Source: Pseudomonadota bacterium
GTDB taxonomy: Bacteria; Verrucomicrobiota; Verrucomicrobiia; Limisphaerales; SXTU01
Reading direction: 5' to 3'
Assembly: GCA_009924135.1 (NCBI GenBank)
Contig: RFSE01000050.1
Coordinates: 1-32,759 of the forward strand
DNA length: 32,759 nt
Positions 2,396 through 32,759 of the stretch are shown piece by piece. Each line of letters starts with the position of its first letter. Position 1 is the first letter of the stretch. The translations under genes and the position numbers were made by a program. The notes under the pieces are model-generated. The model saw only the letters and a program-made list of their open reading frames with translations. It did not search any database and was not told the origin of the DNA.

Positions 2396-2464
2396 CGGAG
2401 ACGGTGTCGCGCGAAGGCCGCGAAGAGAGCGAAGGTGAAGAAGCTGCGAGCCCACCGCCTTCCC

Positions 2465-2496: not shown

Positions 2497-2555
2497 ACAC
2501 GCCTTCCCCGAATTTCGCCTTGCCCGTCGCGCCGGAGCGTCGAGAGTGTGACCCC

Positions 2556-4436: not shown

Positions 4437-4446
4437 AGCTCCTTAC

Positions 4447-4716: not shown

Positions 4717-4754
4717 TCGTTGACCTTCATCCCATTTGCTGACACACAACCCCC

Positions 4755-5990: not shown

Positions 5991-6068
5991 CTCCACGCGA
6001 CGAAAGAGCATTCGCCGCGCGCCTATCCCGGCTCGACTTCTGCGCTGGTTTCTTCCGACACTCCCCGC

Positions 6069-7202: not shown

Positions 7203-7220
7203 GGCTGCGGGGACGGTTTT

Positions 7221-7349
7221 GAATCAGGAAAGCAGGAAGAACTGCTGTAAAGTAGTTCGCCCCCTACTGATGCACCGCACCTTTCTGATAGTCTCTTCAC
7301 GAAGGAATACAGGAAGCTTTCCCTTCCTGCCTTCCTGCTTTCCTGATTC
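7221..7349. repeat. inverted-repeat element, family B (ATCAGGAAAGCAGGAAG arms)
   Basis: A perfect 19-bp inverted repeat (gaatcaggaaagcaggaag at 7221-7239 and its complement at 7331-7349) encloses about 90 bp. That interior contains a smaller hairpin-like stretch, gaactgctgtaaagtagttc. The same arms recur at 20616-20684 with a shorter interior. It fills most of the 200-bp gap between hisC and the PepSY-like gene. Confidence 0.85.
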
Positions 7350-7402
7350 ACCAGTTTTCCTTTCCGATTGCGCGAGGCGCTTTCAGCTTTCACATTGGCA
7401 TC

Positions 7403-7906: not shown

Positions 7907-7912
7907 TTCGGT

Positions 7913-8062
7913 GTGGCGGCAGGCGTCCCGCCTGCCGTAGAGGGCGGCATCTTGCCGCCCGGAATCGGGCCGCGATATTAGGCAGCCGAAAGAGTTTTCG
8001 TGCGCTTCCACCCGCCGGGCGGGACGCCCGGCTCTACGGCAGGCGAGGACGCCTGCCGCCAC
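7913..8062. repeat. four-hairpin GTGGCGGCAGGC repeat, family D copy 1
   Basis: The outer ends are GTGGCGGCAGGC (from 7913) and its near-complement GCCTGCCGCCAC (to 8062). Inside are short GC-rich palindromes such as ggcaggcgtcccgcctgcc and gccgggcgggacgcccggc, separated by tagag/ctcta. It lies between the convergent ends of the PepSY-like gene and the binding-protein gene, where it could also act as a bidirectional terminator; no T-tract follows the stems. Confidence 0.85.
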
Positions 8063-8079
8063 GGGCCTGCCACCACGGG

Positions 8080-10140
8080 TTACTTCTTCTTGAAGTAAAG
8101 CTCCTCCGCGTTCCACGAGACGCGATAGCTGGTCAGCACCGTCGGACGCACGTTGCCGAGGTCGGCGCGGTAGGCGGCGATGCGATGGGCGCTCACCGTG
8201 TAGATGTAGGGCAGTTCGCGCGAGAGGATTTCCTGCACCTCATCGTAGATGGCCTTGCGCTTGGCGAAGTCCAGCGTCTTGAGCTGGTCGTTCATCAGCT
8301 TGTCAACGCGCGCTTCCCACGCGGTGGCCGGCTGCTTCTGCTGCGGGAACCACATGTGTGTGAAGCCGTCGGACTTGAGCACGTTCAGGCTCGACGCGGG
8401 ATCGCTCGTGCCCCCGCCGAGCGAAAGGAGGATGGCCTCGTACTCAAACGAATTGTCGATCTTGTCCACCAGCGTGTTGAACTCGATGGGCTGGTAGTTG
8501 ACCTTGAACCCCAGCTTCTTGAGGTCGGCCTGGATGACGATGGCCATCTTGTCGCGCGTGTTGTTGCCCGTGTTCGTGTTCAGCGTGAACTCAACGACGT
8601 TGCCTTCGGCGTCGGTGAGCTGGCCGTCACCCTTGCGGTCCTCGATGCCGATCTCCTTCAGCAGCGCCTTGGCCTTGGCCACGTCGTAGGCGTACTTGAC
8701 CACATTCGGGTTCCGCCACTTCTGGTACGCCGTGGAGACAAACCCGTCCGTGCCCTCGCCGCGCCCGGCGAAGATGGACTTCACGATGCTGGGCCGGTCA
8801 ATCGCATGCTGCACCGCCTGGCGGAACTTCGTGTTCAGGAACCACTTCGCGTGCTTTGGGTCCACGAGCGGCTTGGCGGTAAGCTGGGCGGCCCCGTTGG
8901 GCTCGGCCAGCGTCACGGTGGCGGCGTCGAACTTCACGGTCACCGGCAGAGTCATGCCCTGCGTGAGCGTCACGGATTTTTTCTGCTCCGGCCCATTTCC
9001 GATGCTCAGCGTTAGGTCCACGGAGCCGAGGAAAGTACGGGCGGTGTCGGGGAGCTTGGAAAGCTTCTTCTTCTCGATGGTGAGGTGGGCGTCCGGCTTA
9101 TCCACGGAGAACTTCACCTGGGCGACCCAGTTGGTGTTGAGATTGAACCAGACGAAGCTCTTCTCCGGCCCGACGCCGAGCTGCTCCAGCTTGAACCGGT
9201 CCGATGCCGACTCCGTTTTGAAGCGTTCATACTCGTCCGGCCGCACGTCCTCGAAGACGTCGCTCTCGCCCTTGAGAAAGCGCAGCGACATCGCGTTCAT
9301 GTCGGGCACGGTGGTGTAAATGACGTTGTCGAGGTACGGCAGGCGGGTGCCGGCTTTGTCCACCTCGAAGAAGTTGGGATTGCGCTCGAGCAGCGTGAGT
9401 TCGCCGGCCTTGAACTGCTTGAGCTTGAACGGCCCGCTGCACACCAGCTTGTCCGGCGCGGTGTCGATGCCGTAGGCGGACTCGAACTTGCCCTGGGCCA
9501 CGGATTTGGCCAGCACGTGCTTCGGCAGGATGGGGATGCCGCCCCACGCTTCCTCAAACGGAGCGTAAACATCCGGCGTCACAATCCGCACGGTGAGATC
9601 GTCTACTTTTGAAACCGCGAACTTCTTGCCATCGATGGTGAACAGGTCGGCGGTGGCGCTGACGATCTTGGGGTTGTAGATTACGTCGTTCCAGGTGAAC
9701 ACCACGTCATCCGCCGTAAGGGGGTGGCCATCACTCCAGACCAGGCCCTGGCGCAGGTGGAACGTCCAGGTCTTCTGGTCCTCGGCGACTTCCCACTTGT
9801 GGGCCAGCGAGGGTTTCACCTTCTCGGTGGGGGCATCCAGGTCCGTGAGGCCGAGGAAGAGGAAGCGGATGATGTCGCGCGAGGTCTGCTCGTTTTCCGT
9901 GATGGGGTTGAAGGTCTTGGGATCCCCGAAGGTGGCGATGACCAGGCGGCCCCCGCGAATGCCGGGCTGGCAATCAGCCACCAGCGGCGGCACGGGCAGC
10001 GCGCCCTGGGTGGACGAGGCACCGGAGCCGCCGGGCTTTCCGCCTGGGGCGTTGGCCTCATCCTTCTTGCAGCCGGAGAAGAGCAGCGTCGCCACGGCGG
10101 CGACCACGAGACAGAGTGAACTGGTTAGCGTGCGAGTCAT
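8080..10140 (-). CDS. ABC transporter substrate-binding lipoprotein (SBP_bac_5; dipeptide/oligopeptide type)
   Basis: This is a 686-residue periplasmic solute-binding protein anchored through a lipobox-like FSGC (Cys24). The start at 10140 gives a proper lipoprotein signal (MTRTLTSSLCLVVAAVATLL); an upstream in-frame start would add 32 non-signal residues. Family 5 features are visible: FGDPKTFNPI (71-80), the KPSLAHKWEVAEDQKTWTFHLR block (109-130), WSDGHPLTADDVVFT (135-149), and FRQAVQHAIDRPSIV (439-453). Length exceeds the usual 500-600 because about 85 residues (338-424) are inserted between WFNLNTNW and the WFLNTKFRQAV block. It is divergent, by 96 bp, from the permease-ATPase genes of the same importer. 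The ligand, peptide or other, cannot be read from sequence. Confidence 0.93.
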   Translation of the reverse strand: MTRTLTSSLCLVVAAVATLLFSGCKKDEANAPGGKPGGSGASSTQGALPVPPLVADCQPGIRGGRLVIATFGDPKTFNPITENEQTSRDIIRFLFLGLTDLDAPTEKVKPSLAHKWEVAEDQKTWTFHLRQGLVWSDGHPLTADDVVFTWNDVIYNPKIVSATADLFTIDGKKFAVSKVDDLTVRIVTPDVYAPFEEAWGGIPILPKHVLAKSVAQGKFESAYGIDTAPDKLVCSGPFKLKQFKAGELTLLERNPNFFEVDKAGTRLPYLDNVIYTTVPDMNAMSLRFLKGESDVFEDVRPDEYERFKTESASDRFKLEQLGVGPEKSFVWFNLNTNWVAQVKFSVDKPDAHLTIEKKKLSKLPDTARTFLGSVDLTLSIGNGPEQKKSVTLTQGMTLPVTVKFDAATVTLAEPNGAAQLTAKPLVDPKHAKWFLNTKFRQAVQHAIDRPSIVKSIFAGRGEGTDGFVSTAYQKWRNPNVVKYAYDVAKAKALLKEIGIEDRKGDGQLTDAEGNVVEFTLNTNTGNNTRDKMAIVIQADLKKLGFKVNYQPIEFNTLVDKIDNSFEYEAILLSLGGGTSDPASSLNVLKSDGFTHMWFPQQKQPATAWEARVDKLMNDQLKTLDFAKRKAIYDEVQEILSRELPYIYTVSAHRIAAYRADLGNVRPTVLTSYRVSWNAEELYFKKK

Positions 10141-10236
10141 GGGAGGAAGATTTCCACCAGCGCGCGGGTGAGTCGAGTAAACAGTCTGCTTTGAAGCTTG
10201 GAGCCGGGCCGGACCGTCAATAGGCTTCACGCGCAC

Positions 10237-11205
10237 ATGGGCACGTTCATTCTAAAACGTCTGCTGCACATGATCCCGATCCTGCTCGGGGTCTCGCTGC
10301 TCACGTTCCTGCTCATGTCGCTCACGCCCGGCGGTTACCTGCAAAGCCTGAAGCAGAATCCGCAGATTTCCCCCGAGACGGTCGAGAAGCTCCTCGCCAA
10401 ATTCCACCTCGATAAGCCGTGGTATGTCCAATACTGCTACTGGCTCAAGAATGTCGCAGTCGGCGACTTCGGCTACTCGGTCCAATACAAGATCTCCGCC
10501 ACCGACCTCATCACCGCGCGGCTGTGGAACACCTTCTTGCTCTCCTTCTTCGCCACCGTCGTGGCGTGGTTTGTGGCGGTGCCGCTGGGCATCTGGGCGG
10601 CGGTGAACAAGGATTCGCTGGTGGACCGCGCCTGTTCCCTGATTGCGTTCGCCGGCCTTTCGATCCCGGAAATCCTCCTTGCGCTGCTGGCGTTGATGTT
10701 CGCGGCAGCCACCGGCTGGTTCCCCATCGGCGGAGCCCAAGGCTCGCTCTATGACCTGATGACGCCGACGGAACGGTTTTGGAACCGCGCGCACCACCTC
10801 GTCCTGCCGGTGCTGGTCCTCGCCGCAAGTGAACTCGCCGGCATCATGCGCCAAATGCGCTCCAACCTGCTGGACACCCTCCGCGCCGAATACGTCACCG
10901 CCGCCCGCGCCAAGGGCCTGCCGGAAGGCTGGGTGATCTACAAGCACGCACTGCGCAACGCGATCAACCCGTTGCTCACCATTTTCGGCTACTCGCTGGC
11001 CCACCTGCTCAGCGGCGCGTTCATCGTCGAGAACATCATGGCCTGGCCGGGTCTCGGCCGCCTGACCATCGAGGCTTATTCCGCGAAAGACTCGATGCTG
11101 GTGGTGGATTCCGTGGTGATGGCCACCGCGCTGCTCATTGTCGGCAACTTCGTGGCGGACCTCATGCTGGCATGGAGCGATCCGCGGATAAGGTTGAAGG
11201 AATGA
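10237..11205 (+). CDS. ABC transporter inner-membrane permease, DppB/OppB family
   Basis: This is a 322-residue permease with six expected membrane helices. TM1 is at residues 10-28 (MIPILLGVSLLTFLLMSLT), followed by the long periplasmic segment with PWYVQYCYWLKNVAVGDFG typical of the B-type subunit. The cytoplasmic coupling (EAA) loop is visible as EYVTAARAKGLPEGWVIYKHALRNAINP. ATG 10237 was chosen because it starts the normal MGTFILKRLLHMIP N-terminus; an in-frame start 13 codons upstream adds nothing recognisable. It pairs with the C-type permease at 11369 and the ATPase at 12533 and presumably receives substrate from the divergent lipoprotein. A 7-bp-unit repeat separates it from the next gene. 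Confidence 0.94.
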   Translation: MGTFILKRLLHMIPILLGVSLLTFLLMSLTPGGYLQSLKQNPQISPETVEKLLAKFHLDKPWYVQYCYWLKNVAVGDFGYSVQYKISATDLITARLWNTFLLSFFATVVAWFVAVPLGIWAAVNKDSLVDRACSLIAFAGLSIPEILLALLALMFAAATGWFPIGGAQGSLYDLMTPTERFWNRAHHLVLPVLVLAASELAGIMRQMRSNLLDTLRAEYVTAARAKGLPEGWVIYKHALRNAINPLLTIFGYSLAHLLSGAFIVENIMAWPGLGRLTIEAYSAKDSMLVVDSVVMATALLIVGNFVADLMLAWSDPRIRLKE

Positions 11206-11206
11206 A

Positions 11207-11360
11207 AGCTCCAAGCTCCAAGTTCCAAATCCCAAATAAGCTCCAAGCTTCAAGCTCCCAAGGGCTTGCCTGGCTCATCGGCATCCTTGGTAACCGTTGC
11301 GGTTTGGAGCTTGGATTTTGGAGCTTCTTTGGAACTTGGCGCTTGGGATTTGGAGCTTCG
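11207..11360. repeat. AGCTCCA/TGGAGCT palindromic repeat, family C copy 1
   Basis: The left arm (11207-11258) is built of 7-bp units around TCCAA (agctccaagctccaagttcc). The right arm (about 11300-11360) is its imperfect complement (tttggagcttgg, ttggaacttgg). About 40 bp of unique sequence lies between. It occupies nearly the whole gap between the two permease genes, starting two bases after the first stop codon. Confidence 0.88.
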
Positions 11361-11368
11361 TCCATCGC

Positions 11369-12436
11369 ATGAGCGAGCCCGCCCCCAACCTGCCCCTCTC
11401 GCCGCGCCAGCTCTTCTGGAGGCGGCTCCGTGCGCGGCGCGCGGCGATGGCCGGGGGCGTGATCCTCGCCGTCCTTTACCTCACTTCGATCCTTGCCGGT
11501 TTCGTCGCCCCCTATCACTACGAGACGGATGACCGTGACCGGTTCTTTCACCCGCCCATCCTGCCGAAGTTCGACGGCTTGCGGTTCGTCGTCCCGCGCT
11601 GGGAACAGCAGGCCGGTCAGTTCAAGTACGCCCCGGTCCCCGGCGACGTGAAGCCGTTGCACTTCTTCGTGAAAGGCGACAAATACCTCCTCTTCGCCCT
11701 GATTCCCTGCCAGACGCACCTCTTCGGCACCGGCGAAAAGAACTACCCGATCAACCTCTTTGGCACCGACCAGTTCGGGCGCGACGTATTCTCGCGCATC
11801 CTCTACGGCTCGCAGATTTCGCTGAGCATCGGCCTGATTGGCATCACGCTGTCGTTCACCTTCGGCATGTTGAATGGCGGCATCTCCGGGTACTTCGGCG
11901 GGCGGATCGACACCGTCATCATGCGGGTGTGCGAGCTGATCATGTCCATCCCGTCGCTCTATCTCATCATCGCGCTGCGCAACACCTTTCCGCCCAACAT
12001 CTCCTCCACCGAAGCCTACGCGATGATCATTGTAATCCTGAGCTTCATCGGCTGGGCGAGCATGGCACGCGTGGTGCGGGGCATGGCGTTGAGCCTGCGC
12101 GAGCGGCAGTTCGTCCTCGCGGCGCGCGCGATGGGGGCGACGCCGTGGCGCATCATCACGCGGCACATCCTCCCGAGCACGTTCAGCTACGTCATCGTGG
12201 CCGCGACCCTGAGCGTGCCTTATTACATCCTCGGCGAAGTGGTTTTGAGCTACTTGGCCGTGGGCATCCAGGAACCGCAGGCGAGCTGGGGTAACATGCT
12301 CACCGCCGCGCAAAACTCGGAACATCTCCGCAGCTACCCCTGGCTGCTCGCCCCCGGCGCGGCCATCTTTGTCACCGTTCTGGCTTTCAACTTCCTCGGC
12401 GACGGCTTACGAGATGCGGCAGATGCTAAAAGCTGA
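11369..12436 (+). CDS. ABC transporter inner-membrane permease, DppC/OppC family
   Basis: This is a 355-residue C-type permease. TM1 is around residues 27-47, then about 85 periplasmic residues lead to the family signature [13 protein letters not shown] (131-143). The extended loop with [15 protein letters not shown] and [22 protein letters not shown] matches the long-loop subgroup of OppC proteins. The EAA loop is seen in [27 protein letters not shown] 11369 gives a normal N-terminus; the frame stays open upstream through the repeat to a TTG at 11297, which would add 24 repeat-derived residues and is judged unlikely. It forms the channel with the B permease. Confidence 0.94.
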
Positions 12437-12445
12437 ATTCGATCA

Positions 12446-12525
12446 ACCACAGAGACACAGAGAGCACAGAGCCTGCATGAAAACTATTTTCGCCTTCCTC
12501 CCTGTGCTCTCTGTGCCTCTGTGGT
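12446..12525. repeat. ACAGAGAGCACAG inverted repeat, family E
   Basis: A 24-bp inverted repeat (12446-12469 and 12502-12525, one mismatch, accacagagacacagagagc-type arm) encloses about 32 bp. A 10-bp direct repeat, tgaaaactat, occurs at 12478-12487 and 12525-12534, the second copy running into the ATPase start codon. It fills the gap between the second permease and the ATPase gene. Confidence 0.85.
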
Positions 12526-12532
12526 GAAAACT

Positions 12533-13489
12533 ATGCCTCTCCTCGACATCCGCAACCTCCAGCTCGAATTCGGCACCGGCAAGGACGCGCTCCGCGCCGT
12601 GGACGGCGTGTCCTTCACCATCGCGGAAGGCGAGACGCTTTGCCTCGTCGGCGAGAGCGGCTGTGGCAAGAGCGTTTCCGCCCTCTCCATCGCCCGCCTC
12701 GTGCCCACGCCGCCCGCGCGCTACGTCGGCGGCGAGATTCTGCTCAACGGCCGCGACGTGCTGAAAATGGACCAGCGCGAGCTGCGCTCCATCCGGGGTG
12801 GCGTGGTGAGCTACATTTTCCAGGAGCCGAGCGCTTCGCTCAACCCGGTCTTCCGCGTCGGCAACCAGATCAAGGAATCACTGAAACTTCACCGCCCCCA
12901 GTTCGCCACGGACGAGGAAGTCATCCGGCTGCTGAAACTGGTCGGCATCCCCGCGCCGGAATCGCGCATCCGCGATTACCCGCACCAGATGTCCGGCGGC
13001 ATGCAGCAGCGCATCATGATCGCGATGGCGCTGGCCAGCGAACCGAAGCTCCTCGTGGCCGACGAACCGACCACTGCGCTGGACGTGACCATCCAGGCGC
13101 AAATCCTCGAGCTGCTGCGCGAACTCAAGCAACGCCTGCGCATGAGCATCCTGCTCATCACGCACAACCTCGGCATCGTCGGCGACATCGCCGATCGCGT
13201 GGCCGTGATGTATGCCGGGCAGATCGTGGAGCTGTCCCCCGCCCGCGCCCTGCTTCAGCGCCCGTTGCACCCCTACACGCAGGCATTGATGAACTCCGTG
13301 CCACAGCTCGGCCACGAGCTGGACCGCCTCCAAGCCATCCCCGGCAATGTGCCCAACCTCGGCCAGTTCCCCAGCGGCTGCCGTTTCCACCCGCGCTGCC
13401 CCAAGGCGCAAAGCGACTGCTCGCAGAAAGCCCCGGAGCTGGTGGAAGTCGAGCCGGGGCGGTGGGTACGATGTCCGTATTGGAAGTAG
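12533..13489 (+). CDS. ABC transporter ATPase, DppD/OppD family
   Basis: This is a 318-residue nucleotide-binding subunit. The Walker A motif is GESGCGKS, the signature is MSGGMQQR, Walker B is [12 protein letters not shown], and the switch His is in LLITHNLG. The C-terminus carries the oligopeptide-transporter extension with [12 protein letters not shown], a Cys-rich segment typical of DppD/OppD. ATG 12533 is used; GTG codons at 12521/12524 lie inside the repeat arm. Only one ATPase is present: the usual DppF/OppF partner does not follow, as the next + strand 250 bp are repeats. It either works as a homodimer or pairs with an ATPase encoded elsewhere. Confidence 0.95.
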
Positions 13490-13504
13490 ATTATAGTGCA
13501 TCCG

Positions 13505-13742
13505 AGCGGAGGCGGGACGCCTGACGCCACGTTGGTAGGGCGAGACTCCCGTCGAGCCCCCATCTGCGGACGGAGTCGGCGCGAGCGCAGCGAGCATCCC
13601 GGTACTTTGTGGCCTCACACCCGGCCGACGGCAAACCACGCTAGTAAGTCCATCGGAACCCTGCTGCACTGCCGACCCTCGTTGCGTTCCGTCCGGGCGG
13701 CAGGATGCCGCCCTCTACGTCAGGCGGGACGCCTGACGCCAC
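13505..13742. repeat. compound repeat region: family D copy 2 with GCGAGCGCAGCGAGC-type insert
   Basis: The left part has ggcgggacgcctgacgccac (13512-13531). The middle (13533-13600) contains gtagggcgagactcccgtcg and gcgcgagcgcagcgagcat, also found at 18939-19002. The right part is the normal family D 3' half: gggcggcaggatgccgccc, then gtcaggcgggacgcctgac, ending GCCAC at 13742. It lies between the convergent ATPase and metallo-hydrolase genes. Confidence 0.75.
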
Positions 13743-13761
13743 ACCAGAATGGCGACCCGAT

Positions 13762-14781
13762 CTATTTCCCCGTGCCCGCGAGCAGCGCGCTGGCCTTGAG
13801 CTTCACCGGTTCCACCTGCGCCTGCTTCTTGGCCGGAAAAGCGGCCCCGCCCATCTCCTTCCACGCGCTCTCCACCTGCATGGTGATGAACTGGCCGAGG
13901 TAAATCGCGATGCGGTCGTCCTTGCGGAGGGTTTCCCTGATGGTGTCGGCGGCGGCCTGCACTTCGGCGGCGGTCTTGCCGGCGTCCTTGAGCTTTTTCA
14001 CCTCGGCGAGGAGGGACTTGAAATAGAGCTGCTGGTTCACCAACACCTCGGGGCCGCCGCTCGGACCGTGGGCGGGGCAGACTTTCAAGGGCTTGAGCGC
14101 AATGACGTGGTCGAGGGTCTTGATCCATTCGTGGATGTTGCCGTCGCCGGTGTAGTTGTAGGGGCCGTTCACGCAGGCGTCGCCGGTGAACACGATGCGC
14201 TCCTTGGGCAGCCAGCCCCAGCCGTCGCCGTGCGTGTGCGCGGTGCCGAAGTGGTGGAACTCGATGCGGTGGGTGCCATCGTCGAAGTCGAGCTGCTTCT
14301 CGAACAGCAGGCTGGGCGGGCGAAGCTTGCTGGCGGCGACGTCCTTGCGGCCCTTCGCGGCGTCCTCCCAGCGGCCCGGTCCCTTGCCGGTGAAATAGTT
14401 CGTCTCGTATTTCTTCATCTCCGCCAGCACACCGACATGGCCGACGATGGTCGCGCCCGCCTCGTGCATGACCTGGTTGCCGTAGGCGTGATCGCCATGG
14501 TGATGCGTGTCGAAGGCGAAGCGGATGGGCTTGTCCGTCATCGCCTTGATCTTGGGCAGGATGACCTGGGCGCCGGAGGGGAAGTTCGCGTCGATGACGA
14601 GCACGTAGTCGTTAAAGACGATCCAGCCGTTGTTGCAATGCCCGTGGCGGCCGATGTCGCCCTCGTGAAAGTAAACATCAGGGGAAACCTTCTCGATGAC
14701 GTTCACCTCGGCGCGGGCAAAGGGAGCGGCGAGCAACGTGGCGAGGGCAAGGGTTTGGACGGAACAGAGCAGCGGCTTCAT
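13762..14781 (-). CDS. secreted metallo-beta-lactamase-fold hydrolase
   Basis: This is a 339-residue exported enzyme with signal peptide 1-24 (LALATLLAAPFARA). The metal-binding pattern of the MBL superfamily is visible: His93-x-His95-x-Asp97-His98 in THHHGDH, a His in GTAHTHGDG (182 or 184), Asp201 in VFTGDACVNG and His238 in CPAHGPSGG. The start at 14781 was chosen for the signal peptide; the frame continues upstream into repeat DNA. The superfamily includes lactamases, lactonases, glyoxalase II and sulfatases, and the substrate cannot be assigned. Codirectional with the DUF4838 gene upstream, from which a family D repeat separates it. Confidence 0.9.
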   Translation of the reverse strand: MKPLLCSVQTLALATLLAAPFARAEVNVIEKVSPDVYFHEGDIGRHGHCNNGWIVFNDYVLVIDANFPSGAQVILPKIKAMTDKPIRFAFDTHHHGDHAYGNQVMHEAGATIVGHVGVLAEMKKYETNYFTGKGPGRWEDAAKGRKDVAASKLRPPSLLFEKQLDFDDGTHRIEFHHFGTAHTHGDGWGWLPKERIVFTGDACVNGPYNYTGDGNIHEWIKTLDHVIALKPLKVCPAHGPSGGPEVLVNQQLYFKSLLAEVKKLKDAGKTAAEVQAAADTIRETLRKDDRIAIYLGQFITMQVESAWKEMGGAAFPAKKQAQVEPVKLKASALLAGTGK

Positions 14782-14830
14782 GGCGGGCACTTTTGCAGAA
14801 CGGGAATGGGCGTCAAGCGGGTAGGGACGC

Positions 14831-14998
14831 GTGGCGGCAGGCATCTTGCCTGCCGTAGAGCCGGGCGCCCCGCCCGGCGGACGAAACGCCGCCCACCAGG
14901 TAGGATGCACGTAATTTCGTACCCCTATCATCATTCGTCGCACTTTTTCCGGGCGGCGGGACGCCGCCCTCTACGTCAGGCAGGATGCCTGACGCCAC
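14831..14998. repeat. four-hairpin repeat, family D copy 3
   Basis: The order is GTGGCGGCAGGC end, ggcaggcatcttgcctgcc hairpin, tagag, gccgggcgccccgcccggc hairpin, about 70 bp spacer, gggcggcgggacgccgccc hairpin, ctcta, gtcaggcaggatgcctgac hairpin, GCCAC end. It is nearly the whole gap between the DUF4838 gene and the MBL gene. Confidence 0.9.
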
Positions 14999-15003
14999 TG
15001 GGA

Positions 15004-21818: not shown

Positions 21819-22259
21819 TCAACCTTTCTTCCGGGTGAGCACCATGAGAAAGGCGTCCGGCGGAGTGCTGCGAAACTGGGTGGGCCGGGCTTTGCCGGGA
21901 TTGCCGGAGCACCATTTGAGCGTGTCGCCGTCGAACAGGAGGATGCCCTGGTAGAATTTCCCGCGCGTTTGCCCGCCGGTGCCATTGGCATCGATCGTCA
22001 ACATGGTCCCGGTCTTTCCGAGCGTAAACGTGCCTTCGCCGAGCGGGTTGCCTTGACCGTCTTTGGCAGTAATTTTTTCAGGCGTGATGACCAGTTCGCT
22101 GATTTTGGCGCGGGCACTGCCGGGACGCGAACCATCGCCTTCCACCGCCGCACCCTCCCAAACGCCGAGCAGTTTCTTCAGCTCGGCGGGCGGCTCCGCT
22201 GCTGAAGCGGGATTGACCAACACTGTAAGAATCAGGCCGAGGAGAAAATTGATTTTCAT
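21819..22259 (-). CDS. secreted TIGR03067-domain protein
   Basis: This is a 146-residue exported protein. Signal peptide is 1-20 (FLLGLILTVLVNPASAA). The mature part fits the TIGR03067 family found in planctomycetes and Verrucomicrobia: LKKLLGVWEGAAVEGDG near the start, ISELVITPEKI, the TIDANG segment, GILLFDGDTLKWC in the middle and FLMVLTRKK at the end. Members are small lipocalin-like beta proteins of unknown role. ATG 22259 is supported by the signal peptide and by the operator ending 23 bp upstream, the same spacing as at the gene starting at 24509. It lies directly downstream of the histidine-kinase gene on the same strand but appears to have its own promoter. Confidence 0.88.
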   Translation of the reverse strand: MKINFLLGLILTVLVNPASAAEPPAELKKLLGVWEGAAVEGDGSRPGSARAKISELVITPEKITAKDGQGNPLGEGTFTLGKTGTMLTIDANGTGGQTRGKFYQGILLFDGDTLKWCSGNPGKARPTQFRSTPPDAFLMVLTRKKG

Positions 22260-22282
22260 GCAGACAGGCTAACCGGACCGCC

Positions 22283-22320
22283 ATGAAGCGAAGATGAAAG
22301 GCACATGAAAACGGGTTCAT
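22283..22320 (-). promoter_or_regulatory. candidate response-regulator operator: three TTCAT boxes plus one inverted box, 11-bp period
   Basis: Read on the minus strand, ATGAA (22320-22316) is followed by TTCAT at 22309-22305, 22298-22294 and 22287-22283. Every step is exactly 11 bp, one helical turn. It ends 23 bp before the TIGR03067 start codon and overlaps the TGA stop of the histidine-kinase gene. A second copy with the same architecture is at 24448-24485. OmpR-family regulators typically bind tandem half-sites at about this period, which makes the neighbouring regulator the natural candidate. Confidence 0.72.
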
Positions 22321-23723
22321 CCGCGCCCGCTCTCCGGCAGCCGCACGCAAAACTCCGTCCCCTGACCCACCTCGCTGGCGACGCTCACCTTGCCGCCGTG
22401 CGCAGTGACCAGCGCCTCGACAATCGACAAGCCCAGGCCCGCGCCGCCGAACTCACGGGAACGCGCCTTGTCCACGCGATAGAAGCGCTCGAAGAGGTGC
22501 GGCAGGTGCTCCGCCGGAATGCCCGGCCCGGTGTCGCGCACGCGTACGACGGCTGCGCCCGATTCCGTGGCGACAGTCAAGGTCACGCCCTCGCCGCGCG
22601 GCGAGTAACGCAGCGCGTTTTCCACCAAATTGGCCAGCACGCGCTCGAGCGCCACACTGTCGCCGTGCACCACCGCCGGAGTCGGCGCGGACACGGTAAT
22701 GGTCACGCCGGCGAGGCCGCTGAGGCCCGCCAGCTTGCGCGCAACCTCCTGGCACAAGGCGGACAAGTCTACCTGTTCGCGGGCCGCGACACCTTCGCCG
22801 GCATCCGCGCGGGCGAGCGCGAGGAGGTTTTCGGTGAGTTTGGAGAGCCGCTCGATTTCCTCGCGGGCGCTCTGGAGCACTTCGCGGTAATCCTCGCCGG
22901 TGCGTTCGCGGCGGAGGGCGACTTCGATCTCGCCGCGCAGGACCGTCAGCGGCGTGCGCAATTCGTGCGAAGCGTCGGCCAGGAAGCGCTGTTGCGTCGT
23001 GTGTGCGGCTTCGAGTCGGTCGAGCAACTCGTTGAACGTGCGGGCGAGCCGCGCGAGTTCATCGTCCTGCGGCGGCACGAAAAGGCGTTCGCGCAGCCGG
23101 CCCTGCGCACCGATCAGGTGGGCGGACTCGCTGGCGGCGTCCACGGTGCGGAGCCAGTGGTTGAGGAGCAGGAGGGCCACCAGCCAGACGGCCGCCACGG
23201 TGGCCACCCCGCCGATCACCAGCCACTGACGCAACGTGCGCAAGCGGGCCTCGCGATCCCGCACCAGCACGGCACACTGGGCGAAGCCGGTGATTTGCTG
23301 CCGGCCGTCGCGGTAGAAGCTCACCGGCACGGTGGCCAGACGGACGAGTTCACCATCCTTGCGCGTCACGGTCTCCGTGTGGCCGGCGTGGGAAGTCTCG
23401 ACGGAACGCCGGGCGGCCTCGGACAGCGGCAGCGGGTCGGCGAGGTTGGCGGACTTGGCGATCAGGTTGCCCTCGATGCCGTAGAGCTGGACGAAGAGCC
23501 GTTGTTTGTCGGATTCGAGGAAGCTTTCCATCCACGGCTGGAGCTGCGGATTTCCGGCGTAGGTGGCCTTCGAGAGCATGAACGCCCGGTCCTGCACGAG
23601 CCGGTCGATGTCCGCGCGCACTGCGTCCGCCGCCGTGAGGTGCACGAACACGCCGAACGCCGCCACCGCCACCGTGGTCAGCACGGTGAGGCCGAGGAGC
23701 AGCCGGAAGCGGAAGGTGTTCAC
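22317..23723 (-). CDS. sensor histidine kinase (CusS/OmpR-partner type)
   Basis: This is a 468-residue membrane kinase. TM1 is about 8-30 and TM2 about 166-188, enclosing a periplasmic sensor region of about 130 residues. A HAMP segment follows (189-242). HisKA has His253 in ASHELRTPLT as phosphoacceptor. The ATPase domain has the N box NLVENALRYSP (365-375), G1 DTGPGIP (397-403), an F box in LFERFYRVD and G2 GGAGLGLS. It overlaps the response-regulator gene by 4 bp, a coupling typical of two-component operons. The stimulus is unknown; sequence-family resemblance to metal or envelope sensors is weak evidence. Confidence 0.95.
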   Translation of the reverse strand: MNTFRFRLLLGLTVLTTVAVAAFGVFVHLTAADAVRADIDRLVQDRAFMLSKATYAGNPQLQPWMESFLESDKQRLFVQLYGIEGNLIAKSANLADPLPLSEAARRSVETSHAGHTETVTRKDGELVRLATVPVSFYRDGRQQITGFAQCAVLVRDREARLRTLRQWLVIGGVATVAAVWLVALLLLNHWLRTVDAASESAHLIGAQGRLRERLFVPPQDDELARLARTFNELLDRLEAAHTTQQRFLADASHELRTPLTVLRGEIEVALRRERTGEDYREVLQSAREEIERLSKLTENLLALARADAGEGVAAREQVDLSALCQEVARKLAGLSGLAGVTITVSAPTPAVVHGDSVALERVLANLVENALRYSPRGEGVTLTVATESGAAVVRVRDTGPGIPAEHLPHLFERFYRVDKARSREFGGAGLGLSIVEALVTAHGGKVSVASEVGQGTEFCVRLPESGRG

Positions 23724-24397
23724 GGTTGGTCCTCCGCCTTCATCACGTAGCCCGCTCCGCGCACGGTGTGGATGAGTTGGGGCTTGAAGTCCCGGTCCAC
23801 CTTTTCACGCAAATGATAAACCGTCACATCGATCACGTTGGTCATCGGGTCGAAGTGCAGGTCCCATACCTGCTCGGCCAGCTCGGTGCGCGTGACTACC
23901 TGTCCGGCATGGCGGACGAAGTGTTCGAGCACGGCAAACTCCTTCACGGAGAGAAAGATCGGCTGGCCGGCCCGCGTGACCTTGCGGGCCTTCAAGTCCA
24001 GCACCAGGTCCGTGAGGCGCAAACTCGTCTGCTCCACCGCACCGCGCCGCAGCAGGGCCCGCACGCGGGCGAGAAACTCGGCGAACGCGAAGGGCTTGGT
24101 AAGGTAATCATCCGCTCCCGTGTCCAGGCCGCGTACCCGGTCATCCACGCCGTCGCGCGCCGTGAGCATGAGCACGCGGCAGGGCCGCTTGGCGGCGCGG
24201 ATTTCGGTCAGGACCTGGAAGCCGTCCTTCTTCGGCATGAGCACATCCAGCACGACGAGGTCGTAGGGATTGACGAGCGCGAGTTCGAGGCCGGCCTCCC
24301 CGTCATGCGCCACGTCCACGGCAAAGCGCTCCTCCTTCAGCCCGCGCTCGATGAAGCGCGCGACCTTTTTCTCGTCCTCGACGACCAGGATGCGCAT
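23720..24397 (-). CDS. OmpR/PhoB-family response regulator
   Basis: This is a 225-residue DNA-binding regulator. The receiver domain (1-115) shows acidic Glu7/Asp8, phosphoacceptor Asp51 in VVLDVLMPKKDG, Thr79 in MLTA and Lys101 in LTKPF. The C-terminal winged helix (about 125-220) ends with NVIDVTVYHLREKVD and IHTVRGAGYVM, the classical recognition-helix and wing region. ATG 24397 (MRILVVEDE) is preferred to the TTG two codons upstream. It is cotranscribed with the kinase. Two matching operators, at 22283-22320 and 24448-24485, bracket the pair. The second lies 50 bp upstream of this gene in the divergent gap, so autoregulation is possible. Confidence 0.95.
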   Translation of the reverse strand: MRILVVEDEKKVARFIERGLKEERFAVDVAHDGEAGLELALVNPYDLVVLDVLMPKKDGFQVLTEIRAAKRPCRVLMLTARDGVDDRVRGLDTGADDYLTKPFAFAEFLARVRALLRRGAVEQTSLRLTDLVLDLKARKVTRAGQPIFLSVKEFAVLEHFVRHAGQVVTRTELAEQVWDLHFDPMTNVIDVTVYHLREKVDRDFKPQLIHTVRGAGYVMKAEDQP

Positions 24398-24447
24398 GGC
24401 CAAGTTCTAGCAGACCTGCCCGCGCCGCCGCGAGTGCTGGCTGCGAG

Positions 24448-24485
24448 ATGAACACTTTTTCATCCGGGGTTCATTTTGCGTTCAT
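24448..24485 (+). promoter_or_regulatory. candidate response-regulator operator, second copy
   Basis: ATGAA (24448-24452) is followed by TTCAT at 24459-24463, 24470-24474 and 24481-24485, each step 11 bp. About 27 of 38 positions match the copy at 22283-22320 in the same order and orientation. It ends 23 bp before ATG 24509 and is also 50 bp upstream of the divergent regulator gene. Confidence 0.72.
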
Positions 24486-24508
24486 GCGGTGCGTGGCAGG
24501 TTGGGCGC

Positions 24509-27487
24509 ATGAAAACGAAATGGATGACGGGAAGCTCCAAGCTCCAAGTTCCAAATTCCAAAGAAGCTCCAAGCTCCAAATCCCAAACGCCGGCCGGAGA
24601 CTCGTGCTTCGGCCGGTCGGCAGCACCCCGCAGGTTGGAGCTTGAAGTTTGGAACTTGTTTGGAATTTGGAGCTTGGGATTTGGAGTTTTCGCCATGCTG
24701 CTCGGTCTCACCACCCAACCCGCGCACGCCGCCACGACCGTAAACGTCTCCACAAACGTCGCCCTCGCCGGTGCCAAACGCATGGGCATGAACTTGAGTT
24801 TCCACACCTACTACGATTCGCGCCTCATGATGAAAGAGCTGGCCTTCCGCAATCCGGGCTTCGAGGGGCAGCAGTACCAGTCCACCGTGCGGGTCGCCTC
24901 CGGCACGGCCACCAGTTGCGTGGATGACACGCCCTTTGGCGGGTGGACGAACGGCTTCTGGGACGGGGCGAGCTATGAGTTCATCTGGGGCACGGCGAAG
25001 GGCCGCACGGGCACGCTCGCAAATTTCACCCGGCCGCCGAACCAGACCACCGGCGCGGGTTACACGTTTGCCAACAGCGGAGTCACGCCCGCGCCCGGCG
25101 ACTACTTCGTCCTGCGGAAAGTCTGGAACACCAACCCCGAGACCGGCTGGAACACCAGCGGCACCAACTTCGTCATCACGCCCGAGCTGGTTGATCTGCC
25201 GCCGGACACCCTCGGCCGGCAGGCCTTGCACGTGACCTCCACCAATTCGCCCGCGAACTTCAGCCTCACGTCCGTCACCGATGCCTATCCCGGCCAGAAC
25301 TTCCTGCTGCTCAACGGTCATTACCGCGTCACGTTCAAGGCCAAGTCCCGCAGCGGGACGCAGGCACTCAACGTCGTGGTGCGGCGTACTGCCACGTATC
25401 TGAACACGAACGTCGCCCTCACCGCCACGTGGACCACCTACGTCCTGGACTTCACCGCCGCCGAGGTCGGCAGCGCGCCAGGCGTGGTCTCGTTCCAGTT
25501 CAACCTCTTCACCGCCTTTGATGCGCTGTTCGACGACGTGAGCTTCACCCAGACGGACAGCGACCCCGGCAACCCGACCGCCTTTCGCGACGCCGTGGTG
25601 AACGCTTTGCAGCTCTACCGCCCCGGCATCCTGCGCGGCTGGCAGGAGATCCACGGTGAATCCCTCGACAACCAGTTGAAGCCCCCGCTGGGCCGCCGCC
25701 GCGCAGGCTACTCGCTCTACGGCACCGCACAGGCCAACGTGCAGTACGGCTGGCACGAACTGCTTGAACTCTGCGAGCACGTCGGCGCGGAGCCTTGGCT
25801 CGCCGTGCCCATCACCTTCTCGGCGACGGACATGGCCGGCCTGATGGAGTATCTGACCGGCCCCACCAACACGCCTTACGGAGCGATCCGGGCGGCCCGT
25901 GGCCACCCGGTGCCGTGGGCCAACGTCCTTCCGAAGATACATCTCGAATTCGGCAACGAGGCGTGGAACGGCTTCACCTACTTCGGCGGCGTGATGACAC
26001 AGGCCGTGCCCTACGGCAACCGCGCAAGCGAACTGTTTGCCGTCGCGCGGTCGGCCAGCGGTTTTGTGGCCAACAAATTCGACCTCGTGCTCGGCGCCCA
26101 TGCCCCCGAGACCGCTCGGAATCTGAACATTCACAACGCCTGCACCAATCACGACACGCTTACGATCGACGGCTATTTTTACACGCGCGTGGACAGTTAC
26201 GCGAACAACGAGGAGCTGTTCGGTCCCCTGCTGGCGCAGCCCGAGGAGTTCAACCGCGCCGGCTACATGCTGACCAATTACCTCAACGTCCGCGCCTCCA
26301 GCCGGCCGGTGGCGCTCTCCATTTACGAGGGCAACCTCAACACTACGCAGGGCCTGATCACGAACTCCCAGGCCGCCCTCGACCAGCTCACGCCCAGCCT
26401 CGGGGCCGGCCTGGCGGTCGCCAACGACATGCTCATGAAACTCCGCCATCTGGGCATGCGCGACCAGTGCCTCTTCAACCTCGGCGGATTCTCCACGGGC
26501 CTGGGCAGCGGCTCGCGCATCTGGGGCGTCACCCGCGACATGGGCGTGACCGACCGCAAACGCCCGCAGTTTTACACGGTGCAGTTCATCAACGACGCCA
26601 TCGGCTCCGGCGCGGACGTGCTCCAGACGACGCACACGGGTGACGATCCCACCTGGAGTTCCGCCGGCACCAACTCCGTGGGGCTGGCCAGCGCGCATCA
26701 CCTCGCCAGCTACGCCCTCGCCAGCGGCACAAACCGCTCGGTCATCGTGTTCAACCTCCATCGTACCAGCGCGCTCGACGTGAACTTCACCGGCAGCAAC
26801 GCCCCGTCCGGCACCGTCACCTTGAAACGCCTCACCTCCGCGAATTTCACGGACAACAACGAAAACGCCAACGTCGTCGTGCCCACCACCAACGTGTTGA
26901 GCAACTTCAACCCCACGCAGAATTTCAACCTGCCCCCGGGTTCCATGAACGTCTTCACCTGGTCCATCAGCGCGCCGGTGGCAGCACCGGCCTTCACCGT
27001 TCCGCCGCAAAGCCAGGTGGTCATTTCCGGAAGCACCGTGACCCTGTCCGCCACGGTCAACAGCCCGGCCCCGCTGACCTGGCAGTGGCAGCGCAACACG
27101 GTGGACCTGCCCGGCGCGACCAACGCCACGCTCCAACTGTCCGGCGTGAACCGTGCCGACACCGGTGTCTACGTCCTCCGGGCCACTGGTCCCGGTGGCA
27201 CCACTGCCAGCCAGCCGGCCCTCGTGCGGGTGTTGAAGGCCACCCGGCTCGGCACACCCCAGCCCCTGGTCGGCGGCGGTCTCCGGGTGTTGTTTAACGA
27301 CTTCGACGGCGGGCTGCTGTCCCTGGGTGATACGCCCAATTTCGAAGTCTGGGTGAGCACGAATCTGCTGGCCACCAACTGGGTGCGCCTGAACCTCCCG
27401 CTCATCGTTACCAATGGCCTGCTGTCCCTGGATGACTCCGACGCGGTCAACCACCGCCACAGGTTTTATCAGGTGATCGAACGCTGA
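24509..27487 (+). CDS. large secreted glycoside-hydrolase-like protein with Ig-like domain
   Basis: This is a 992-residue exported protein. Residues 1-74 should direct export: an unusually long polar n-region, hydrophobic VWNLFGIWSLGFGVFAMLLGL, then QPAHA. About 225-350 resembles a carbohydrate-binding jelly roll (LLNGHYRVTFKAKS, ALFDDVSF). About 355-800 looks like a clan-A TIM-barrel: possible acid/base Glu484 in LEFGNEAWNG and possible nucleophile Glu607 in SIYEGN, as in GH51/GH39-like enzymes. An Ig-like domain occupies about 830-908 (SQVVISGSTVTLSATV, LTWQWQR, DTGVYVL), followed by about 80 terminal residues. Start 24509 is supported by the operator 23 bp upstream. The substrate is not determined and catalytic residues are inferred. 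Most of the signal region is repeat-derived. Confidence 0.82.
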   Translation: MKTKWMTGSSKLQVPNSKEAPSSKSQTPAGDSCFGRSAAPRRLELEVWNLFGIWSLGFGVFAMLLGLTTQPAHAATTVNVSTNVALAGAKRMGMNLSFHTYYDSRLMMKELAFRNPGFEGQQYQSTVRVASGTATSCVDDTPFGGWTNGFWDGASYEFIWGTAKGRTGTLANFTRPPNQTTGAGYTFANSGVTPAPGDYFVLRKVWNTNPETGWNTSGTNFVITPELVDLPPDTLGRQALHVTSTNSPANFSLTSVTDAYPGQNFLLLNGHYRVTFKAKSRSGTQALNVVVRRTATYLNTNVALTATWTTYVLDFTAAEVGSAPGVVSFQFNLFTAFDALFDDVSFTQTDSDPGNPTAFRDAVVNALQLYRPGILRGWQEIHGESLDNQLKPPLGRRRAGYSLYGTAQANVQYGWHELLELCEHVGAEPWLAVPITFSATDMAGLMEYLTGPTNTPYGAIRAARGHPVPWANVLPKIHLEFGNEAWNGFTYFGGVMTQAVPYGNRASELFAVARSASGFVANKFDLVLGAHAPETARNLNIHNACTNHDTLTIDGYFYTRVDSYANNEELFGPLLAQPEEFNRAGYMLTNYLNVRASSRPVALSIYEGNLNTTQGLITNSQAALDQLTPSLGAGLAVANDMLMKLRHLGMRDQCLFNLGGFSTGLGSGSRIWGVTRDMGVTDRKRPQFYTVQFINDAIGSGADVLQTTHTGDDPTWSSAGTNSVGLASAHHLASYALASGTNRSVIVFNLHRTSALDVNFTGSNAPSGTVTLKRLTSANFTDNNENANVVVPTTNVLSNFNPTQNFNLPPGSMNVFTWSISAPVAAPAFTVPPQSQVVISGSTVTLSATVNSPAPLTWQWQRNTVDLPGATNATLQLSGVNRADTGVYVLRATGPGGTTASQPALVRVLKATRLGTPQPLVGGGLRVLFNDFDGGLLSLGDTPNFEVWVSTNLLATNWVRLNLPLIVTNGLLSLDDSDAVNHRHRFYQVIER
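24533..24686. repeat. AGCTCCA/TGGAGCT palindromic repeat, family C copy 2, inside a signal-peptide region
   Basis: The left arm (24533-24587) consists of TCCAA-centred 7-bp units. The right arm (about 24635-24686) is its imperfect complement, with about 47 bp between. The size and design match 11207-11360. It begins 24 bp after ATG 24509 and the frame stays open through it. The left arm reads as a polar Ser/Lys/Pro stretch and the right arm as LELEVWNLFGIWSLGFG. Confidence 0.9.
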
Positions 27488-30424: not shown

Positions 30425-30787
30425 GTGGCGGCGGGCATCCTGCCTGCCGTAGAGCCGTAGCTTCCAGCCCGGCGGAATAAGAGCCTCGATCATCGGCTGA
30501 CCCGCGGAAAACACCGTGTCGTAAGCCGGGACGAAGCAGTTGAGCCACGGATGGAACACGGATTAAACACGGAGCCAACGGTGCCGGGACCGCCGTGCCC
30601 CGCAGCTTGACCCGCACCGTTTGGTCCTAGCAGGCAACTGCGCCAAAACGCGGGCTCAGCTCGTCCCCATCCGTGTTCCGTCCGTGTTTCATCCGTGGCT
30701 AACGAATCGGTCCGTATAGGAACTCCGCGCCCCAATCCGGGCGGCAAGATGCCGGCCCTCTACGGCAGGCAGGATGCCCGCCGCCAC
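30425..30787. repeat. family D copy 5, split by a family A element
   Basis: The left half is 30425-30482 (GTGGCGGCGGGC end, ggcatcctgcctgcc, tagag). The right half is 30736-30787 (gggcggcaagatgccggccc, ctcta, ggcaggcaggatgccc, GCCGCCAC end). Between them sits the family A copy at 30542-30713. Without it the spacer would be about 80 bp, close to the 69-70 bp of intact copies 3 and 4. It is part of the 506-bp gap 30347-30852 between divergent genes, in which I see no gene. Confidence 0.8.
30542..30713. mobile_element. MITE-like element, family A copy 4 (inverted relative to copy 3)
   Basis: The right terminus, atccgtggctaacgaatcgg-tcc, matches the 27491-27674 terminus with one change. The left terminus matches only through agccacggat, so its outermost bases have diverged. 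The 108-bp core aligns without gaps to copy 3 in reverse complement. The most conserved stretch, accaaacggtgcgggtcaa, is identical. Confidence 0.78.
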
Positions 30788-30852
30788 CGGCGTCCGCTGC
30801 CCTCCCACATTGCAGGCGTGACGACCGCGCTGGCTTGCCTATCCTCTCCGCC

Positions 30853-32759
30853 ATGCAAGTCCGCCTCACCGCTCTCGTCGCGTTGGTTTCCTTCGCGCTG
30901 TCCGCCTCCGCGGCGTCGTTGTCCACGGAGCAGCAGGCCCACCTCTGCCGCTGGTGCGCAGCGCAGTTCGCGCCGGCCGCCGTGGATTCGCCCGCCTACC
31001 GCAAATACGCGCCCGACCGCCGCGCGGACATCCTGCATCTCGCTCTCGACGTGACGCCGGACTTCAAGGCCCGCACCATCGCCGGCACCGCCACGCTCAC
31101 CTTCAAGCCCATCGCCACACCGCTGGACGAGCTGCGGCTGGACGCGGTGGACTTGCGCATCGCGTCCGTGACCAGCTCGGAGAAGCTGCTGGGCCACCAG
31201 GTCACGGACAGCCAGATCGTCATCACCTTCGCCCCGCCGATTCCCGTCGCGAAGGAGGCCCGCGTCACTGTGAAGTATTCCGCCGAGCCGCGCAAAGGCC
31301 TCTACTTCCGCACGCCGGAAATGGGTTACCCCGAGACGCACCTGTGGACCCAGGGCGAGCCCGCCGAAGCGCGCCATTGGTTCCCGTCGTTCGATCATCC
31401 GGTCGAGAAGTTCACGAGCGAGATGACCTGCCACGTGCCCACTGACATGGTCGCGTTGTCGAACGGGCGGCAGGTCTCCGCGCAGCCGGGCGCCGGTGGC
31501 CTCGTCGCGTTCCACTGGGTGCAGGAGAAGCCGCATGTGAACTACCTCATCACGCTCGTGGCCGGACGATTGACGAAGGTCGCGGACAAGCACCGCGACA
31601 TCCCGCTCGAGTTCTGGACCACCGCCAGCGACCACGCGGAGGCCCCAAGCTCCTTCCGCAACACGAAGAACATGATGCAGTTCTTCGAGCGCGAGATCGG
31701 CGTGAACTATCCATGGGCCAAGTACGGCCAGGCCGCCGTGCATGATTACCACTGGGGCGGCATGGAAAACACCAGCCTCACCACGCTGAACTACCGCACG
31801 CTCTTCACCGCCCAGACCGAGAACCTGTTCAACAGCGACAGCCTCGTTGCCCACGAGCTGGCGCACCAGTGGTTCGGCGACCTCGTCACGTGCAAGGACT
31901 GGAGCCACGTCTGGCTCAACGAAGGCTTCGCCACCTACTACGACTGGCTGTGGCAGGGCGATTTCGGCGGGACGAACGAGACGTTGAACGCCCTGGCCAG
32001 CGCGGCCAAGGGCATCCTGGCGAACCAGAACGAGACGCGCGGCATCGTCTGGCGCAAGTTCGGCGAGCCCGAGGAGATGTTCAACTACCTCGCCTATCCC
32101 AAGGGCGCGTGGGTGCTGCACATGCTCCGCTGCCAGCTCGGTGCGGACCTCTACCGCCAGTGCATCCGCACGTACCTGGACCGCCACGCGTATGGCTCGG
32201 TGGAGACGGCGGATTTGCGCAAGGTCATCGAGGAACTGTCCGGCCGCAGCTACGACCGGTTCTTCGAGCAATGGGTCCACGGCATCGGCGCGCCGACGCT
32301 GGACGTGAACTATTCGTGGGACGAGAAGACGAAGCTCGCGCACGTGAGCGTGAAGCAGACGCAGAAGATTTCCGACGAGGCGCACCTCTTCCAGTTCCCG
32401 CTGCCGCTGCGTTTCAAGTCCAAGTCCGGTACCACGGACCTGGTCGTGCAGGTGCGGGAGAAGGAGGAGGATTTTTACGTCCCGCTGAAGGCCGCGCCCG
32501 ATGTGGTGCGCGTGGACCCCGGCCTCACGTTGCTCGCGCGCATCAACTTCAAGCCCGCCACGCCCATGCTCCTCACGCAGCTCGCGGACAAGTCCGACTT
32601 CACGGGCCAGCTCCACGCACTGGACAACCTCGCCGGCCGCAGCGACAGCGAGACCGTGGGAAAGCTCAAGGCCGCGCTGAACAGTGACTCGCACTACGTC
32701 ATCCGCACGCGCGCCGCCGACCTGCTCAAGCAGGCGCATACGGACGAGGCGCTCGCGGT
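30853..32759 (+). CDS. M1-family zinc aminopeptidase, secreted (C-terminus beyond window)
   Basis: At least 635 residues run to the window edge without a stop. Signal peptide is 1-20 (ALVALVSFALSASAA). The M1 fold is clear: N-terminal beta saddle (about 45-230), substrate-binding GGMEN (302-306), zinc ligands His334 and His338 in HELAHQWF, catalytic Glu335, and third ligand Glu357 in WLNEG. Residues 500-600 match the beta domain of the shorter bacterial M1 peptidases, and the sequence is entering an alpha-helical C-terminal segment (AALNSDSHYVIRTRAADLLKQA) at the edge, resembling HEAT-like repeats. It trims N-terminal residues from peptides, probably in the periplasm. The start is an ATG just after the signal-peptide-free leader. 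Confidence 0.94.
   Translation, partial: MQVRLTALVALVSFALSASAASLSTEQQAHLCRWCAAQFAPAAVDSPAYRKYAPDRRADILHLALDVTPDFKARTIAGTATLTFKPIATPLDELRLDAVDLRIASVTSSEKLLGHQVTDSQIVITFAPPIPVAKEARVTVKYSAEPRKGLYFRTPEMGYPETHLWTQGEPAEARHWFPSFDHPVEKFTSEMTCHVPTDMVALSNGRQVSAQPGAGGLVAFHWVQEKPHVNYLITLVAGRLTKVADKHRDIPLEFWTTASDHAEAPSSFRNTKNMMQFFEREIGVNYPWAKYGQAAVHDYHWGGMENTSLTTLNYRTLFTAQTENLFNSDSLVAHELAHQWFGDLVTCKDWSHVWLNEGFATYYDWLWQGDFGGTNETLNALASAAKGILANQNETRGIVWRKFGEPEEMFNYLAYPKGAWVLHMLRCQLGADLYRQCIRTYLDRHAYGSVETADLRKVIEELSGRSYDRFFEQWVHGIGAPTLDVNYSWDEKTKLAHVSVKQTQKISDEAHLFQFPLPLRFKSKSGTTDLVVQVREKEEDFYVPLKAAPDVVRVDPGLTLLARINFKPATPMLLTQLADKSDFTGQLHALDNLAGRSDSETVGKLKAALNSDSHYVIRTRAADLLKQAHTDEALA

Follow-up and report, generated by a model that had tools for sequence, protein, structure and literature searches.

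Two arrays of four 5-bp boxes flank a two-component gene pair in the window (the whole stretch of DNA analysed, 32,759 nt), and both arrays are likely to be activator operators of the adjacent CusR/HprR-like regulator, with two target genes that would be expressed as leaderless mRNAs. The features of the locus are as follows.

21819..22259, minus strand: target 2, a TIGR03067 domain protein with a signal-like N-terminus (TIGR03067 57.1 bits, cut-off 40.15)
22266..22271, minus strand: -10-like TAGCCT, 11 bp past the last box
22283..22320, minus strand: left putative operator, an exact four-box match with a counterpart in the relative genome G007 that has one box mismatch
22317..23723, minus strand: sensor histidine kinase, heavy-metal-sensor subfamily (TIGR01386)
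23720..24397, minus strand: OmpR-family response regulator, CusR/CopR/HprR-like (Response_reg and Trans_reg_C, Pfam)
24448..24485, plus strand: right putative operator, an exact four-box match with 0 shuffle matches, found at the same place in G007
24497..24502, plus strand: -10-like CAGGTT, 11 bp past the last box, with A and T at positions -11 and -7 relative to the ATG
24509..27487, plus strand: target 1, probably secreted, with an Ig domain (Pfam Ig_3) and a weak alpha-L-arabinofuranosidase-like segment (PDB phmmer)

The right array on the plus strand is composed of ATGAA (24448-24452) followed by TTCAT at 24459-24463, 24470-24474 and 24481-24485 with a pitch of 11 bp, and the left array has the same arrangement on the minus strand with ATGAA at 22320-22316 and TTCAT at 22309-22305, 22298-22294 and 22287-22283. 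An ATGAAA start follows each array after 23 bp, at 24509 (plus) and 22259 (minus). The right array is placed between the regulator start (24397, leftward) and the target 1 gene (24509, rightward), and the left array overlaps the kinase stop codon. A first-pass annotation of this DNA had described the twin four-box sites, their 11-bp steps and the 23 bp to ATG; these and its coordinates are exact, and its count of 27 identical positions out of 38 between the two 38-mers is confirmed. Box 1 reads as the reverse complement of boxes 2-4, each array thus being formed by one inverted and three direct half-sites. The inverted pair ATGAA-N6-TTCAT in both arrays has the 16-bp outer length of CusR/AgrR/LciR-type operators, and two more in-phase TTCAT boxes at 11-bp steps lie between this pair and the -10 element.

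The best NCBIfam match of the regulator, for which the ATG at 24397 was chosen as the start, is TIGR01387 (heavy metal response regulator) with 262.4 bits, under the cut-off of 279.2. The kinase, with a GTG start overlapping the regulator stop codon, scores 295.8 bits against TIGR01386 (heavy metal sensor histidine kinase), over the cut-off of 292.55.

Within the window the only four-box matches with up to three mismatches are these two, and 0 of 100 dinucleotide shuffles of the window gave any such match. The exact three-box pattern is present in the 6.68-Mb genome at the same two sites only, and the three one-mismatch three-box places elsewhere are all 11-bp repeats of the CTGTG/CCGTG type. 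Four boxes followed by 23 bp and ATG occur genome-wide (up to three mismatches) at two places, both with 0 mismatches, compared with 0 places for the reversed four-box and ATG pattern used as a control. It is exceedingly improbable that chance or a dispersed 11-bp-period repeat (TTCATCYGTGT type in the genus) mimics phased TTCAT boxes here. Several genus and order matches are indeed such repeats, but the inverted box is found in 0 of 11 repeat-type places, the spacers of the window sites are unlike each other, the shuffles gave no four-box match and the rest of the genome is without four-box sites having ATG at +23 at this tolerance. Chance and dispersed repeats were rejected as the origin of the arrays on the genome scans, the shuffles and the order-wide set described below. 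The first-pass judgement that chance was unlikely is therefore upheld, and at the stringency searched the pattern is confined to this locus and does not fall at random positions. Dispersed repeats with an 11-bp period, TTCATCYGTGTTTCATCYGTG, were seen separately in the source genome and the genus (for example G000:C1:111339 and G004:C277:29428), where they can be mistaken for phased TTCAT boxes.

Three TTCAT boxes alone were found in the order (293 genomes searched) at 44 places in 25 genomes, compared with 4 places, all in G143, for the reversed control. In a separate box search the counts were 26 places and, for its reversed control, 2. Examination covered 29 of the 44 places (the 15 left out are in G013:C310, with 12, G260:C23, with 1, and G105:C826, with 2), and of these 11 were excluded as tandem or CYGTGT repeats, leaving 18. 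Box 1, matching ATGAA in at least 4 of its 5 letters, occurs in 17 of these 18 sites, which were selected without regard to box 1, the -10 element or the ATG. The ATG lies exactly at +23 in 10 of them, any other offset between 5 and 39 occurring at most twice, and A is found at the -11 place in 13 and T at the -7 place in 11. The complete four-box and ATG pattern (up to three mismatches) recurs in the order at 45 places in 34 of the 293 genomes, compared with 1 for the reversed pattern; 43 stretches, including the window, were examined, the places in G013:C310 and G220 being left out. Both arrays have counterparts in G007 beside the target orthologs, which are 79% identical to target 1 and 79% identical to target 2.

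The first-pass annotation had also proposed checking whether the operator travels with the regulator/kinase pair, and it does so at most of the strong sites. Among 29 sites with at most one box mismatch, a regulator/kinase homolog (E<=1e-20) lies within 1 kb of 21 and within 5 kb of 22, with no regulator in the stretch examined for the other 7. No such homolog was found near any of 22 other two-box loci of the source genome (about 1.5 kb in either direction, less where a contig ended), and within the genus the 2 of 11 genomes that carry the regulator (E<=1e-75) are also the two with a four-box site. Regulator homologs at E<=1e-75 occupy 14 places in 12 of the 293 genomes and 9 have a four-box grid nearby, including that in G236, which only an unspelled scan lacking a dedicated control revealed; no grid was found near the remaining 5 (G127 twice, once at a contig edge, G091:C197, G035 and G077). 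The local two-component regulon originally proposed is thus sustained in the confinement of the sites to the locus and in their linkage to the regulator across the order, while its binding and activation components are still inferred.

In G036, G189, G210, G185 and G091 the regulator is followed by an operator, the kinase, a second operator and a gene for a probably secreted protein, with some of the target reading frames broken or running off the contig. The second operator is about 12 kb away in G023 and on a separate contig in G078 and G145. Regulator, kinase or target genes in the G185 and G036 loci (L196 and L073) appear to be split between frames with the operators intact, from assembly errors or decay.

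The arrays had initially been interpreted as a head-to-tail operator of the OmpR family. PhoB and CreB have direct-repeat boxes at a pitch of about 11 bp, and the boxes of PhoB, CreB and TorR resemble those of the window in having direct half-sites near one helical turn apart, differing in the absence of an inverted first half-site. The three direct boxes at 11-bp pitch in the window are as expected for an operator of this kind, with the front ATGAA incidental, but such a reading is very unlikely. Box 1 is present in inverted form in 17 of the 18 sites collected without it in the search pattern, so that the half-sites do not share one orientation as in the PhoB type, and it is respelled together with the other boxes elsewhere, as in operators of the CusR/AgrR/LciR type: the box 1/direct pairs are ATGAA/TTCAT in the window, CTTAA/TTAAT in G091, CTTAA/TTAAG in G236, ATTAA/TTAAT in other phyla, and ATGAC/GTCAT and ATTAC/GTAAT in E. 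coli. Orientation was also compared without prescribed spelling in 80 regulator loci from other phyla (regulators 55-62% identical). At a pitch of 11 one inverted and three direct boxes gave 21 sites in 13 loci, several of the sites being overlapping registers or unrelated sequence, compared with 6 sites in 1 locus for the all-direct arrangement and 4-6 sites for other orientations. The same inverted arrangement gave 3 sites in 3 loci at each of the pitches 10 and 13, but at pitch 9 there were 34 sites (14 loci) and at pitch 12 there were 23 (18 loci), pitches at which other orientations are mostly high too (8-193 sites), presumably from codon periodicity. An all-direct operator was rejected on the conservation of the inverted box and this orientation scan.

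The spelling in the other phyla differs from that of the window. The ATGAM/KTCAT/TTCAT four-box pattern was absent from the 80 loci at up to three mismatches, and ATTAR-N6-TTAAY with three TTAAY boxes, a spelling chosen post hoc from a looser scan with the reversed pattern as a control, gave 13 sites in 11 loci at up to two mismatches compared with 0 reversed; 69 of the 80 loci have no site at this tolerance. At 3 mismatches the counts are 3 and 1, and at 4 they are 11 and 18, which is the chance level. All 13 sites are on the strand of the regulator, either 70-184 bp upstream or 2.07-2.17 kb past its start, the latter being about where the kinase is expected to end. The recognition helix reads DVT(V/I/L/M) in the clade of the window, DVY(V/I)N(H/Y) in the TTAAT loci and DVAVKR in CusR. 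Its match with box spelling is loose, as five other-phyla loci without a found site share the DVY-N helix and a distant group of the order has DVY(I/V)(K/M/R)R yet TTCAT-like boxes.

A comparable grid can be traced in E. coli, where the cusC promoter reads ATGAC-6-GTCAT-6-GTCAC-6-ATCAG-11-TAAAGT and that of hiuH, a target of HprR, reads (by eye) ATTAC-6-GTAAT-6-GTAAG-6-CTGGA-11-TATCCT. Both share with the window the inverted 5-6-5 pair, a third direct half-site in phase and a -10-like element 11 bp past slot 4, and differ in slot 4 being degenerate (ATCAG, CTGGA). A short CusR-box query gave no match in the E. coli genomes searched. The CusR site is described as a palindrome in text quoted in an excerpt of PMC11195947. 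According to sections of PMC7380067, AgrR of Cupriavidus metallidurans, which may be a Type II activator, binds a 16-bp inverted repeat joined at some operators by one or more in-phase direct half-site repeats, and mutation of the inverted or the direct part abolishes or strongly reduces activation, both parts contributing as would be the case here. In the same sections AgrR differs in its half-site (ATKACA/TGTMAT), in its silver/copper-resistance setting and in having direct repeats only at some operators, upstream and/or downstream. For LciR of Legionella, parts of PMC6989116 describe an inverted repeat and two short conserved sequences before the -10, all needed for full induction, mutations in the inverted or accessory parts abolishing or strongly cutting activation, and one divergent target beside the regulator as in the window. 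LciR differs, in the same portions of text, in its ATTACAAnnTTGTAAT spelling, its response to copper and its two short elements, which are 4-bp sequences not termed half-sites. Two plasmid loci with CusR homologs, inspected by eye, fit the four-slot grid only in part: that of Acidovorax reads ATTAC-6-GTTAT-6-GTCAG with AGAAA in slot 4 and no clear -10, and that of A. junii reads ATGAC-6-GTAAT with a poor slot 3 (CGATC), TTTAT in slot 4 and TAGTTT 10 bp further on. The layout is thus already known in pieces for copper and silver regulators. Measured against the open-licence literature searched, what appears to be new is the spelling, the presence of four half-sites that are all near-perfect, the phase relative to the start codon and targets unlike metal genes. 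The same literature yielded no relevant paper on a TTCAT operator or on leaderless genes of Verrucomicrobia.

The phase of the -10 element was compiled from 20 sites, including the two of the window, with positions counted from +23. A is found at -11 in 20 of 20 and T at -7 in 19 of 20 with the bases between them varying; one site was originally detected with the -10 as part of the search pattern, and looser scans supplied the two G091 sites. The start at +23 is ATG or GTG in 16 of the 20, with ATG at +22 in one, at +24 or +25 in two and absent in one, a figure biased by the ATG at +23 in the order-wide search pattern, the unbiased value being 10 of 18. No conserved -35 hexamer occurs between the boxes of the 20 sites, and a -10 at fixed distance without a -35 hexamer, a trait of CusR/AgrR/LciR-type promoters, is present here as judged by sequence only. 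Recognition of a sigma-70 -10 depends chiefly on A-11 and T-7, and for this reason transcription is expected from the start codon itself. The transcripts of both targets are probably leaderless, and the very short leaders of the first-pass annotation would thus have a length of zero; its placing of boxes 2-3 near -35 is about right, with box 3 covering -39 to -35 and box 4 covering -28 to -24 (ATG as +1). There is a small probability that YANNNT is instead a ribosome-binding site with the transcript starting further upstream. Some copies do contain AGGA (CAGGAT), but only A-11 and T-7 are near-invariant, and because the middle three bases vary the element fits a -10 and a Shine-Dalgarno identity was rejected. 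In four kinase genes (G023, G210, G185 and G189) the +23 start corresponds to a 16-17-residue extension in frame with a start at +71/+74, and either start could be real. Five of eight order-wide sites without ATG at +23 show, by eye, (C/T/G)ANNNT 10 bp and not 11 bp past the last box, a spacing also seen in other-phyla loci, and the box-to--10 spacing may mark leadered versus leaderless targets.

For the preferred activator operators we infer that a signal would lead the phosphorylated regulator to bind as a head-to-head dimer together with a head-to-tail dimer. Boxes 1-2 would form a palindrome of the CusR, CopR and AgrR kind, boxes 3-4 would occupy the -35 place with the -10 (YANNNT) 11 bp downstream, and the bound regulator would recruit RNA polymerase to a promoter without a -35 hexamer, with transcription from the ATG or an adjoining base giving a leaderless mRNA. 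The regulon in the source genome would then be, at the stringency searched, two genes for probably secreted proteins, and in related families an operator ahead of the kinase gene would provide sensor feedback alongside one ahead of a large, probably secreted protein. It is unlikely that bound sites instead repress, with the genes off until a signal arrives. The boxes do overlie the -35 region and stop 11 bp short of the -10, and CopR of P. paraeruginosa can exert negative control from a shared site according to part of PMC11195947, but the absence of a conserved -35 hexamer between the boxes leads to the expectation of an activator, and AgrR and LciR activate from the same kind of layout in the sections cited (PMC7380067, PMC6989116). 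Another OmpR-type regulator may bind the sites. The activator reading is weakened by the 5 of 14 close regulators without an operator nearby, the 7 of 29 strong sites without a regulator in the stretch, the 69 of 80 other-phyla loci without a site, the regulator score under the TIGR01387 cut-off and the loose helix correlation.

A wider proposal can be put forward tentatively as a single claim. One inverted and three direct boxes at 11-bp pitch with 10-11 bp to the -10 would be the ancestral promoter plan of CusR/CopR/HprR regulators across phyla, the textbook palindromes would be its distal half only, with half-site spelling drifting and the grid staying, and in the order of the window the grid would be locked to the start codon, with a single array governing activation as well as the leaderless start of translation. 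It is judged somewhat less likely than not to be right as a whole, the partial fit of the two plasmid promoters having lowered its odds slightly. Apart from this proposal, the arrays of the window bring together in a single four-slot layout the CusR palindrome, the AgrR direct repeats and the LciR accessory elements, which had been published separately. A link between operator spacing and leaderless mRNA is suggested. The locus provides a testable regulon for a regulator subfamily usually read as metal-responsive, and the pattern is distinctive enough for targets to be recognised by sequence alone.

Both targets are probably secreted proteins, as suggested by their N-termini, judged by eye for all targets described as secreted. 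The glycoside-hydrolase label given to target 1 at first pass finds weak support in residues 394-471, which match arabinofuranosidases in the PDB by phmmer (E about 6e-6) and which we take to be GH51. An order search with target 1 (146 genomes) gave, beyond the window gene and its ortholog in G007, matches that chiefly involve the C-terminal region, and an AlphaFold model from a two-row alignment is unusable (mean pLDDT 28.6). Among the 11 window proteins scanned with Pfam (positions 1-15000 and 30560-32759 left out) there is no metal-resistance protein, and the control of metal-resistance genes characteristic of CusR, AgrR and LciR was not found for the scanned genes. Targets in relatives are not one family: of eight scanned with Pfam four have no match, and the others show TSP3 repeats, DUF5122 with peptidase M23, an InlB-like repeat with CARDB, and Ig (the G007 ortholog). 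In the distant group of the order (regulator about 44-52% identical) ATGA(C/A)-N6-(T/G)TCAT-N6-TTCA(T/G)-N6-TTCAT precedes small, probably secreted proteins, and five of these scanned gave PepSY in 3, PepSY_like in 1 and only a sub-threshold DUF3108_like in 1. In other phyla what we take from the sequence to be a DegP/HtrA-like protease gene lies about 0.16-0.35 kb past the operator in L086, L087, L094, L118 and L130. The probably secreted targets here, the PepSY proteins elsewhere in the order and the DegP/HtrA-like gene in some other-phyla loci advise caution in heavy-metal naming based on homology. The start of the target 1 gene contains a palindromic repeat (24532-24689) with 62-nt arms that are 76% complementary, which is in frame and adds about 45 residues ahead of the signal-peptide-like region, the G007 ortholog being without it.
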